Virus record (IMG/VR): IMGVR_UViG_3300030109_003751
Coordinates: 1 to 64,000 of that record
Reading direction: 5' to 3' (one strand)
Source of the DNA: a virus
Length of the DNA stretch: 64,000 nt
Positions 18,456 through 28,154 of the stretch are shown in pieces. Position 1 is the first letter of the stretch. Each line of letters starts with the position of its first letter. The notes under the pieces were generated by a model, which had not been told where the DNA came from, did no database searches, and saw nothing but the letters and a program-made list of their open reading frames with translations. The translations under genes were made by a program, and so were the position numbers.

Positions 18456-18475
18456 TACGATATATAATGGATAAT
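18456..18475 (+). promoter_or_regulatory. Promoter-like motif copy 1
   Basis: TACGA at 18456-18460, seven bases, then TGGATAAT at 18468-18475. Identical boxes and spacing occur five more times on this strand in the early block. It is about 180 bp upstream of the first early gene. Confidence 0.7.
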
Positions 18476-18658: not shown

Positions 18659-18886
18659 ATGTCAGTATTAACAAGTAAAAGATTTGTAGTGAGAAAGTCA
18701 CTAATCGGTAAAAATCAAACAATAAATGTAGAATTTCAAAATGGAAAAACTTTCAAATATAATCACGATAAAGTGTGGGAAATTATGAAAGATAAATTAA
18801 GTGAAATGAATTGTTTTATAAAGTATAAAAGTTATACTTCTTCAACAAGTATTCCAACTGTACTAAGAGATAAAGAAGTAGTTTAA
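18659..18886 (+). CDS. First early gene, small hypothetical protein
   Basis: 75 aa, basic, with VEFQNGKTFKYNHDKVWEIMKDKL and CFIKYKSYTSSTSIPTVLR. The composition suits a small host-takeover protein, but no homologue is known to me. It is directly downstream of promoter motif copy 2. Confidence 0.7.
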   Translation: MSVLTSKRFVVRKSLIGKNQTINVEFQNGKTFKYNHDKVWEIMKDKLSEMNCFIKYKSYTSSTSIPTVLRDKEVV

Positions 18887-18905: not shown

Positions 18906-18949
18906 TCTCTTCTTGGAGCAGAGGTGGGTTTCGATTACTCACAAGAGAA
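18906..18949 (+). other. tRNA-like acceptor/T-arm minihelix
   Basis: TCTCTT (18906-18911) can pair with AAGAGA (18943-18948), enclosing a T-arm-like hairpin TGGGT-TTCGATT-ACTCA (18925-18941) with a 7-nt loop of T-loop sequence. It is followed by A-CTA, the same 3' context as the two true tRNAs nearby. No D or anticodon arm is present, and the usual G53-C61 pair is T-A. It may be a decayed tRNA or a processing signal for tRNA-maturation enzymes. Confidence 0.4.
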
Positions 18950-19775: not shown

Positions 19776-19848
19776 GGCGGGATAGAGCAGTTGGTAGCTC
19801 GCAAGGCTCATAACCTTGAGGTCGATGGTTCGACTCCATCTCCCGCAA
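19776..19848 (+). tRNA. tRNA-Met (anticodon CAT)
   Basis: A full cloverleaf can be drawn: acceptor GGCGGGA/TCCCGCA with a G1-A72 mismatch, D-stem GAGC/GCTC, anticodon stem CAAGG/CCTTG with loop CT-CAT-AA, T-arm GATGG-TTCGACT-CCATC. CCA is not encoded (A-CTA follows). The anticodon stem lacks the three G-C pairs of initiator tRNA, so it is an elongator or a lysidine-modified Ile2 tRNA. Confidence 0.92.
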
Positions 19849-19862
19849 CTAAATTAATAACT

Positions 19863-20300: not shown

Positions 20301-20320
20301 TACGATTATCTTTGGATAAT
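20301..20320 (+). promoter_or_regulatory. Promoter-like motif copy 4
   Basis: TACGA at 20301-20305, 7-nt spacer, TGGATAAT at 20313-20320. It lies about 90 bp before the hairpin RNA and about 190 bp before the next gene, so it may transcribe the RNA element. Confidence 0.75.
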
Positions 20321-20413: not shown

Positions 20414-20496
20414 CACTACAAGGAAAGGGACTACAATTACCATTCCCAACTGGAATTCTCTAAGTTAAAAAGGTAATTCCCTTTCCAACTGTAGTG
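20414..20496 (+). ncRNA. Long imperfect hairpin in untranslated region
   Basis: Three stem blocks pair in order: CACTACA with TGTAGTG, GGAAAGGGA with TCCCTTTCC, and AATTACC with GGTAATT. They enclose an inner ATTCC/GGAAT hairpin. A smaller GAGTTCAC/GTGACTC stem precedes it at about 20387-20413. There is no long ORF and no T-run after it, so it is not an intrinsic terminator. It occupies the leader of the 73-aa gene and could be a small RNA or a control element. Confidence 0.55.
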
Positions 20497-20733: not shown

Positions 20734-20971
20734 TTCAGTAAAAGCATGGCATGAAATGAGGGACGACGAAAAAGCGGCAAGAAATCATGCGACTAAAATT
20801 AATAAAAGAAGTTTTGTGTGGGTGTTAGACCATACTTATGGTACAGTACATCTATACAATATAAGACCAGACGCTAACAGTGAAATGTGTGAACAATTAA
20901 TAGAATTAATGGGGCACAGTGTAAACAATTGTCAGTGGATGTTGTCAGAAAGAGATAAAATATACGAATAA
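20726..20971 (+). CDS. Small hypothetical protein
   Basis: 81 aa: MSDSVKAWHEMRDDEKAARNHATKINKRSFVWVLDH followed by strand-rich YGTVHLYNIRPDANSEMCEQLIELM. No known family. It ends only 2 bp before the structured RNA region. Confidence 0.7.
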   Translation: MSDSVKAWHEMRDDEKAARNHATKINKRSFVWVLDHTYGTVHLYNIRPDANSEMCEQLIELMGHSVNNCQWMLSERDKIYE

Positions 20972-20973
20972 AA

Positions 20974-21312
20974 TTGTGGCATTGATGCACCAACCAGGGT
21001 ATCCCATGGTGGTACAAAGCGGATGTAAGTCCACAACTACTAGACTAGTAGAGGAGAAACGTGAGATGTCGGGCGATTGAGCTAGTGCTCACGTTGGAAT
21101 CACCCTCGAATTGCTAGTGATAACTAGGTATGGGTTCAACCTCGGCTTCGGCAAAGGTGAACAATACAGGAAACGCGATAAAGGTTAACAAAGCTTCGAC
21201 AATGGAGGTTCGATTCCTCCACTAGTTACTAAATACCGGCTTAACAGTAAATCGACGCCTTGGCTTCCTTAAGGTATCAGTTGTACAAAGCCAGTCGTAG
21301 TGACAGCCGGTA
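20974..21312 (+). ncRNA. Unidentified multi-hairpin structured RNA with a tRNA-like T-arm
   Basis: No gene fits this 340-nt stretch, which has higher GC than its surroundings and many clear stems: TTGTGG (20974) with CCACAA (21031) enclosing ACCAACCA-GGG-TAT-CCC-TGGTGGT; CTACTA-GAC-TAGTAG at 21037; AACGTGAG/CTCACGTT (21058, 21088); GTTCA-CCT/AGG-TGAAC (21134-21162) with a GC-UUCG-GC tip; a canonical T-arm GGAGG-TTCGATT-CCTCC (21204-21220) closed by TAACTAG (21121) with CTAGTTA (21222); and TACCGGCT/AGCCGGTA (21234, 21305) around CGAC/GTCG and TGGCTT/AAGCCA. It is followed by CTAAAT, as both real tRNAs are. It is not a standard tRNA or tmRNA. Confidence 0.7.
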
Positions 21313-21329
21313 AGATATTACAATATAAA

Positions 21330-21349
21330 TACGATTCAGATTGGATAAT
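21330..21349 (+). promoter_or_regulatory. Promoter-like motif copy 5
   Basis: TACGA at 21330-21334, 7-nt spacer, TGGATAAT at 21342-21349. The next ATG starts at 21356, only 6 nt after the box, so a transcript would be leaderless or nearly so. Confidence 0.75.
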
Positions 21350-21355
21350 AAAAAT

Positions 21356-21580
21356 ATGAAATGTAAATGTAAACCAAATAATATAATACCTCCGCAGCGG
21401 GTAGCTCTAGGGTATACCACTTGCGTCGAGTGTTCAACCACTGAACCATATGGTTGTGTGCAAATCACATACCACAAAACCGGCAATACTATACAGATTA
21501 TGCCTAAAGCTCAGGCGAAACGTATACGTAAGTTATCCGCTAGACGAGGTTACGGAACAATGTTAAATAGAATAAGATGA
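21356..21580 (+). CDS. Cys-rich putative zinc-binding protein
   Basis: 74 aa from ATG 21356. CKCK at the start and TTCVECSTTEPYGC at 22-35 give CxC and CxxC pairs that could bind zinc; a basic C-terminus (KAQAKRIRKLSARRGYG) follows. Codon use is much richer in G and C than its neighbours, like the RNA just upstream, which suggests separate origin. The downstream gene overlaps by 4 nt. Confidence 0.6.
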   Translation: MKCKCKPNNIIPPQRVALGYTTCVECSTTEPYGCVQITYHKTGNTIQIMPKAQAKRIRKLSARRGYGTMLNRIR

Positions 21581-21807
21581 ATTTATACGAACAACTAAAA
21601 CCAGAAGTAAAAAAAGCAATTAAACGAAGTGCTAAGAAATATCCTCATTCTGGTAGGATATTAATAGCAAAATTATATCTTCATACTATGTTTCATGAGT
21701 TAACCATGGGTGACATTAGGGACTTAATTAACTTAAGTAATACTAATGATAACGAATGGGATAACATCAATTGGAAGTATGGAGACAAACTATTTAAAGT
21801 AGATTAA
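21577..21807 (+). CDS. Small hypothetical protein
   Basis: 76 aa, basic and helical: YEQLKPEVKKAIKRSAKKYPHSGRILIAKLYLHTMFHELTMGDIRDLINLS. Looks like a small helix-turn-helix-size protein but with no clear recognition motif. ATGA overlap with the preceding gene. Confidence 0.7.
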   Translation: MNLYEQLKPEVKKAIKRSAKKYPHSGRILIAKLYLHTMFHELTMGDIRDLINLSNTNDNEWDNINWKYGDKLFKVD

Positions 21808-27582: not shown

Positions 27583-27597
27583 CATGTTAATAACATG
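27583..27597. promoter_or_regulatory. Palindrome upstream of ERF gene
   Basis: CATGTTA-A-TAACATG, a perfect inverted repeat with a 1-nt centre, lies in the 61-bp gap between the sigma gene and the recombination genes. Its size and symmetry suit an operator for the HTH protein encoded upstream. No T-run follows, so it is not a terminator. Confidence 0.5.
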
Positions 27598-27632
27598 TAA
27601 TTATTATAATAAGCAAATTTAAACACAAACGA

Positions 27633-28154
27633 ATGAACATAAACGAAAAATTAGCTAATATTCAAACCAAATTTAAATCTAAAAAATCTAGATTTAACAG
27701 CTTCGGCAAATATTACTTCAGATCAGCCGAAGACATTCTCGAAAGCATAAAGCCCTACTTATTAGAGTATGGAGTTACAGTAGTAATAAATGAAAAATTC
27801 ATTAAGGATAGAGATGTTGTTATACTTAAATCAACAGCAACTTTAATTGATGAAAAAGGAATGCGTATTGCTGCAACCGCTATAGTAGGAGTTGATCTTG
27901 AACAGAAAGGTATGCAAATGCCACAACGATTTGGAACAGCATCTTCATATGGAAAAAAATATGCCCTAGGTAATTTATTTCTAATTGATGATACGCAAGA
28001 CAGCGATGCAATTAATACGCATGGTAAAGCAATGTCTGACGATCAAATTAAGGCAGCAAAGCAATTTGTGAAAGCTGGTGGTACGATTGAAGCTATTAAA
28101 AAGAAGTATAAAGTAAACCCTCAATTAGAAAAGGAACTAACGACACTAAAATGA
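27633..28154 (+). CDS. erf: ERF-family single-strand annealing protein
   Basis: 173 aa. KYYFRSAEDILESIKPYLLEYGVTVVINEKF and GTASSYGKKYALGNLFLIDDTQDSDAIN match the ERF superfamily core (GxxxSYxxKYxLxxLFxIxxxxDxDA). It anneals complementary single strands, working with the adjacent exonuclease. Coupled to it by a 4-nt overlap. Confidence 0.88.
   Translation: MNINEKLANIQTKFKSKKSRFNSFGKYYFRSAEDILESIKPYLLEYGVTVVINEKFIKDRDVVILKSTATLIDEKGMRIAATAIVGVDLEQKGMQMPQRFGTASSYGKKYALGNLFLIDDTQDSDAINTHGKAMSDDQIKAAKQFVKAGGTIEAIKKKYKVNPQLEKELTTLK

Follow-up and report, generated by a model that had tools for sequence, protein, structure and literature searches.

D-arm-less and armless tRNAs are found between genes in mitochondria where, according to the punctuation model, such reduced shapes may define transcript ends. 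The tRNA-like domain of transfer-messenger RNA (tmRNA, or SsrA) is another reduced shape, in which an acceptor stem and T-arm are combined with a D-loop analogue that carries GG and has no D-stem, together with A73 and no anticodon. The tmRNAs include permuted forms (RF04321), as well as forms in the mycobacteriophage DS6A and some plastids that consist of the tRNA-like domain only, with no coding sequence. In the case of DS6A, inhibition of tmRNA has been inferred from a similar molecule, which inhibits tmRNA whether or not it can be charged, perhaps by titrating SmpB (PMC4131195; PMC11915505). For bacterial RNase P, hairpins composed of an acceptor stem and a T-arm serve as efficient model substrates (PMC11143913). 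The engineered tRNA scaffold has the same acceptor/T stack and carries a passenger RNA in place of the anticodon arm. Finally, the ornate RNAs GOLLD and ROOL are found near phage tRNA genes and are assembled by kissing loops (PMC12286853). Here we compare these systems with a locus at positions 20974-21312 of the window, by which we mean the whole 64,000-nucleotide (nt) stretch of DNA analysed (positions 1 to 64,000 of the 67,976-base virus record IMGVR_UViG_3300030109_003751), the centre of which holds a tRNA-like RNA (21122..21228) that has neither D-arm nor anticodon and has relatives in other phages of Flavobacteriia.

The locus is a gene-free stretch of 339 bases between an open reading frame (ORF) of 81 amino acids (aa), which ends at 20971, and the next ORF; like its modules, genes A and X and the promoter-like motifs described below, it is read on the plus strand. 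On that strand no ORF within it reaches 60 aa, while a single antisense ORF overlaps its edge. Its GC content is 46.9%, against 31.8% and 33.1% in the flanks, a level reached by just 4 of 6367 segments of equal size. ARAGORN, when run on the window, called only tRNA-Met (19776) and tRNA-Gln (22546) and nothing in the stretch itself, and Rfam, at gathering and at permissive thresholds, likewise saw only the window's tRNAs and no family at threshold. The best weak Rfam match at the region, SAM-I-IV, had an E-value of 2.3 and was set aside as chance. Its folding energy is unremarkable (z=-1.9 for the whole region, and z=-2.3 for both the tRNA-like part and module C, described below), so that folding energy alone gives the finding no support; it is the comparative evidence, covariation and positional conservation, that takes the region beyond chance.

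The tRNA-like RNA, which we class as type V, is built around a T-arm (21203-21221; (T)GGAGG-TTCGATT-CCTCC(A)) with a canonical T-loop common to all relatives. This is closed by TAACTAG (21121-21127) and CTAGTTA (21222-21228) and followed by CTAAAT. In true tRNAs of these phages N73 is likewise followed by CTAA (CTAAA in tRNA-Met and tRNA-Gln of the window), which makes AACTAG/CTAGTT, with A21228 as the discriminator, the probable biological acceptor. The molecule thus has the canonical T-arm and the 7-bp acceptor (here 6+1) with discriminator of a tRNA (RF00005), as well as the 12-13 bp coaxial acceptor/T-stem with T-loop seen in substrates of RNase P and RNase Z. D-arm and anticodon arm are both absent. 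In their place are a D-loop analogue, TATGG, with its GG and no D-stem, and a GTAT/ATAC stem that bears module P (21134..21162; GTTC-AACC-TCGGC-TTCG-GC-AAAGGT-GAAC), followed at the anticodon-arm position by a K-like hairpin (21167..21202; CAGGAAAC ... GGTTAAC ... ACAA). The flanks of this hairpin match module K of relatives and its loop includes GTTAAC; its stem has no covariation support in the window version. A sequence-only reading of this DNA had already pointed to the gene-free, GC-rich stretch, to the T-arm with its closing stem and tRNA-like 3' CTAAAT, and to the lack of a usual D-arm or anticodon arm, a tag frame or a group I intron, all of which stand after comparison with ARAGORN, Rfam and inspection by eye. 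That reading had proposed an Rfam search and stem covariance in related phages as checks; the search gave no clean match and the covariation is clear. It missed the modular make-up of the region, a second tRNA-like RNA at 18906-18949 and the tmRNA-like relatives at the same locus.

To place the RNA among relatives, we collected related records through a neighbouring protein and through DNA patterns (T-arm region, module C, module A and module K), and read long stretches of about 20 of them. These are metagenomic contigs from one broad phage group in which some loci are duplicates; what we count are distinct flanking sequences. A scan of 1.40 Mb for an acceptor, a GG-containing linker and a T-arm returned 35 elements outside ARAGORN genes, compared with 2 hits in total across ten shuffles (0.2 per shuffle). 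Covariation among these elements is circular because the scan itself selects pairing; type V relatives that came from a pattern search without such selection have complementary acceptors as well. Selection by position rather than structure was provided by gene A (75 aa, 18659..18886), which in the window carries in its 3' untranslated region a miniature tRNA-like RNA of 44 nt (18906..18949; TCTCTT-CTTGGAGCAGAGG-TGGGT-TTCGATT-ACTCAC-AAGAGA-A, then CTAAT). When we identified the orthologues of gene A by protein similarity and then inspected what lies downstream of them, such a miniature was found behind 28 of 38, at a distance of 15-181 nt and with a length of 40-44 nt (one about 65 nt), against 2 in 11400 for shuffled sites. 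The acceptor stems at this site come in over a dozen distinct sequences, every one of them complementary, and TGG was present in all 17 hits of a stricter scan that did not require GG. Gene X (76 aa, 21577..21807), which in relatives follows the RNA locus, defines the other site: for most of its orthologues, the 1.1 kb upstream include a tRNA-like RNA (56/77, duplicate frames included; shuffles 0/7700), and 21122-21228 is the window's member there. The base after N73 is C, usually as part of CTAA, in all true tRNAs and tRNA-like RNAs examined but one, a type V RNA (L027) that ARAGORN calls as tRNA-Thr with the register one base off. We are highly confident that a family of D-arm-less tRNA-like RNAs exists in related flavobacterial phages.

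Like the reduced mitochondrial tRNAs, these RNAs are cut-down tRNA shapes that lie between genes; unlike them, they have no anticodon at all, many hold large inserts, and they belong to phages rather than to mitochondria. They share with minimal RNase P substrates and the engineered scaffold a 12-13 bp acceptor/T stack with canonical T-loop, and with the scaffold the use of the anticodon-arm place for other RNA, but they are natural, phage-encoded and evolving. ARAGORN misses nearly all of them and Rfam models seldom reach threshold, which exposes an annotation gap, in that both mostly overlook such RNAs. In the body of literature that was searched, no report of them in flavophages turned up. 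By capsid and primase genes, the nearest phages are those of Flavobacterium, Cellulophaga, Tenacibaculum and Maribacter. Blastn of the region against named phages found no relative, and gene A is not found in named phages, so that we know of no isolate with the locus. Cellulophaga phi10:1, the Manatee Spring podovirus and an elemo phage have no comparable family of tRNA-like RNAs; a single isolated match was seen in each of the Manatee record and Maribacter phage Panino. In an unrelated virus contig (L018, 12990-13450) we observed four tRNA-like genes in an array (GGTTCTG-AAAGG..., GGTTGTG-ACAGGAAA...), all lacking the D-arm, carrying inserts of 26-88 nt and escaping ARAGORN; this suggests that the D-arm-less design arose elsewhere too.

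We favour the explanation, to which we would give an even chance, that the tRNA-like RNA acts as a natural tRNA scaffold that RNase P and RNase Z excise from early transcripts. An early phage transcript would then end, on its 3' side, in this structured region, which has the tRNA-like RNA at its centre. There the acceptor stem stacks on the T-arm beside the GG-bearing D-loop analogue, and exchangeable folded modules fill the place of the D and anticodon arms or of the mRNA-like domain of tmRNA. Host RNase P would cut 5' of A21122 or of the base preceding it, and host RNase Z 3' of A21228. Such cuts would punctuate the transcript, separating messages and defining mRNA ends, and would release a capped, insert-carrying RNA that is predicted to receive CCA and to be stable. 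This proposal draws on what the sequences show, namely the architecture, the two conserved intergenic places, the compensatory stems, the exchange of modules and the 3' flank shared with true tRNAs. The two cleavages in particular we infer from that flank, from the known shape of RNase P substrates and from the spacing at the gene-A site, where a stop codon lies 15-21 nt before the element in 12 of 28 cases, and 17 of the 28 have the next ATG 2-24 nt past N73; a distance of 21-23 nt is frequent there and comes with similar leaders (CTAAyA...AACTATG). This is the geometry of a punctuation mark. Just 5' of the miniature at the same site, we also noted a recurrent motif, AGTTCCACTTGTT...GAAyrAGTA, in eight records (L005, L006, L007, L013, L027, L089, L170 and L175).

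Several points weigh against excision. About a quarter of gene-A copies have no element. In the window, module C and a new promoter-like motif intervene between the tRNA-like RNA and the next gene, so that punctuation would be less needed there than at the gene-A site. In two records (L062, L065) a miniature tRNA-like RNA is nested in another module, H, which cutting would split, and processing would not account for how elaborate the inserts are. The cleavages and the transcript are themselves predictions. In addition, a free fold of the whole region favours a structure that breaks the acceptor, although fixing acceptor and T-arm costs just 2.6 kcal/mol relative to this unconstrained minimum. 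The minimum uses a pairing of 21043-21055 with 21216-21227; the former segment, ACTAGTAGAGGAG, is able to pair with the 3' strand of T-arm and acceptor, either by chance or as a switch. If excision does take place, phages have cut the tRNA/tmRNA fold down to some 40 nt and put it to new use as a genetic part, the reduced fold being both a processing mark and a structured-RNA scaffold, a natural counterpart of the engineered one.

The region as a whole is a chain of separable modules rather than a single RNA. It begins with module A (20974..21036; GCATTGATGCAC...GGTACAAAGCGGATGTAAG), which is closed by TTGTGG/CCACAA and has module Q as its terminal hairpin (20992-21010; AACCAGGGTATCCCATGGT). 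The core of module A recurs with different closing stems and terminal inserts in four records (L003, L011, L085 and L089) and with a further module, F, inserted in two more (L009, L178), while module Q is also found within the tRNA-like RNAs of L048 and L054, making three contexts in all. Module P occurs in type V RNAs (L004, L036), in type IV RNAs (L006, L053, L059), in another motif (L003) and free-standing (L053), with closing stem and tetraloop varying across these four contexts. Downstream of the tRNA-like RNA lies module C (21234..21312; TACCGGCT-[TAACAGTAAATCGACG..TTGGCTTCCTTAAGGTATCAGTTGTACAAAGCCAGTCGTAGTGAC]-AGCCGGTA, closed by TACCGGCT/AGCCGGTA), for which we have 19 distinct sequences, whose outer stems are of five or more kinds. 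Both sides of this stem change in 7 of 8 pairs, which none of 500 shuffles and no slid control comes near, and in L060 and L099 the whole module is nested in a tRNA-like RNA at the anticodon-arm place. Module K, which resides inside type V RNAs and also stands as a free hairpin before type IV ones, has a closing stem in which all eight pairs covary. Module F is seen in two contexts and module E either alone or nested in D, and the sites of nesting include the one where tmRNA has its mRNA-like domain. Between module A and the tRNA-like RNA, an orphan multi-helix segment (21037..21121), with a hairpin ACGTGAG/CTCACGT and a possible outer stem TACTAG/CTAGTG, has a single-sequence fold only (z=-1.55); no relative was found for it, and comparative support is nil.

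One module thus appears in different host structures with a compensated closing stem, making module-wise RNA evolution directly visible. We tentatively propose, with somewhat less than even confidence, a combinatorial construction kit for RNA encoded by these phages. Its independent three-dimensional modules (the tRNA-like elbow, the self-kissing hairpin K, and the cores A, C, D, E, F, H, P and Q) would be swapped and nested via their closing stems, so that a single conserved locus would hold a different noncoding RNA in every phage, usually built on a tRNA-like domain derived from tmRNA.

The likeness to tmRNA raises the possibility, which we consider unlikely though worth weighing, that these RNAs are tag-less mimics that would bind SmpB, and perhaps EF-Tu or the ribosome, to block or divert trans-translation, with the inserts replacing the tag domain. 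The DS6A precedent and the inhibitory molecule like it speak for this, as do type IV relatives at the same locus, which keep G3.U70 and A73 (acceptors GGGCGTG/CACGTCC, GGGAGTG/CACTTCC and GGGGGTG/CACCTCC) and align with the two ends of RF00023, mostly at 33-39 bits, while its middle, the tag domain, is missing. In the clearest case (L046; 64.7 bits, E=4e-23, cut-off 47), 12 nt replace 304 model positions; a blastn search with this element found no relative among named phages. The other relatives at the locus mostly score about 27-42 bits, under the cut-off, with E<1e-10, and overall 23 of 47 records match a tmRNA model at E<=0.01, 2 of them above the cut-off. Moreover, a permuted tmRNA that shares its acceptor and flank with type IV (GGGGGTG/CACCTCC-A-CTAA) occurs in Maribacter phage Panino, which is one of the two named genomes that a single capsid gene places nearest. 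We place this tmRNA at 27590-27798 of the Panino record (L188; RF04321, 62.2 bits), within a tRNA island; the deposited annotation gives it other ends, which overlap two tRNA genes. Set against the mimic is the window copy itself, which matches the tmRNA models (RF00023/RF04321) in the T-arm only, at 9.3 bits (G000 without a match), and has A73 but C-G at 3-70 instead of the G3.U70 of alanine identity. In contrast to tmRNA, the phage RNAs also have no tag frame (none was seen by eye in the window) or pseudoknots, carrying structured, exchangeable modules instead, and the family repeats at a second place, in a 3' untranslated region, where the 40-44 nt versions hold a fixed cis position behind gene A. 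As G3.U70 is retained in only part of the family, charging is not a common property, whereas the 12-13 bp stack with T-loop is. For these reasons, the type V copy of the window being without a model match and without G3.U70, we describe it as probably working in the frame of the tmRNA tRNA-like domain and do not claim it to be a tmRNA.

It is less probable still that the 340 nt form one object, the subunit of a homo-oligomeric ornate RNA like GOLLD or ROOL, with the T-loop elbow, palindromic kissing loops and modules as motifs of three-dimensional assembly. The phage origin, the proximity to tRNA genes and the many stems are shared with those RNAs, and the inner four loop bases of module K are self-complementary in all six phage variants (AGCT, GATC in two, GGCC, GCGC and GTAC). 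When the K pattern was scanned over 84,980 bacterial and archaeal genomes as a control, none of the seven matches, all chance-like, had a palindromic inner loop, and self-kissing is indicated by the palindromic K loops; the module F loop TGATCA and the window's GTTAAC are palindromes too. However, the region is much shorter than GOLLD or ROOL and matches no Rfam model of them, K is missing from many relatives, and module content varies widely between phages, unlike that of a fixed cage subunit. Neither the SmpB decoy nor the multimeric RNA excludes processing by RNase P and RNase Z. Debris of a decayed tRNA, tmRNA or mobile element, without function, is by contrast very improbable: D-arm, anticodon arm and tag frame are all absent and the inserts are highly variable, yet the compensatory changes in stems far exceed those of shuffles and slid controls, and over a dozen complementary acceptor variants occupy a single orthologous site. 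Among the options offered by the sequence-only reading, compensatory change thus contradicts a decayed element, and a tRNA-like processing unit is best supported, by the D-arm-less family, its conserved intergenic places and its tRNA-like 3' flanks. A new phage RNA class holds insofar as no Rfam family fits and the exchangeable modules are shared with other phages, although these are several modules and not one RNA. We also rejected a canonical tRNA (no D-arm or anticodon arm, and no ARAGORN or Rfam call), a tmRNA with a tag (no tag frame, and no model match beyond the T-arm) and a group I intron (no match to Rfam intron models at E<=5, in a region that is intergenic and not within a gene). 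The locus offers concrete ways of asking whether phages of marine Flavobacteriia control RNase P, RNase Z or trans-translation.

Turning to the surroundings, a phage-specific promoter-like motif, TACGA-N8-GGATAAT, occurs six times in the early region of the window (at 18456, 18595, 19269, 20301, 21330 and 24240), always on the plus strand, compared with about zero in shuffles. The copy at 20301..20320 is the candidate start of the transcript containing the RNA. Since the next (21330..21349) comes immediately past module C, the RNA is probably the 3' part of a unit begun near 20301 and ending just before 21330; no intrinsic terminator was found near 21312. In the 5' leader of this unit, at 20414-20494, lies a strong hairpin (CTACAAGGAAAGGGA...TTCCCTTTCCAACTGTAG; z=-3.2) for which blastn gave no relative and whose stability no shuffle matches. 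The tRNA-Met upstream of it (19776-19849), like its relatives, has position 1-72 unpaired, as in initiator tRNAs, and a start codon often follows it within a few nt.
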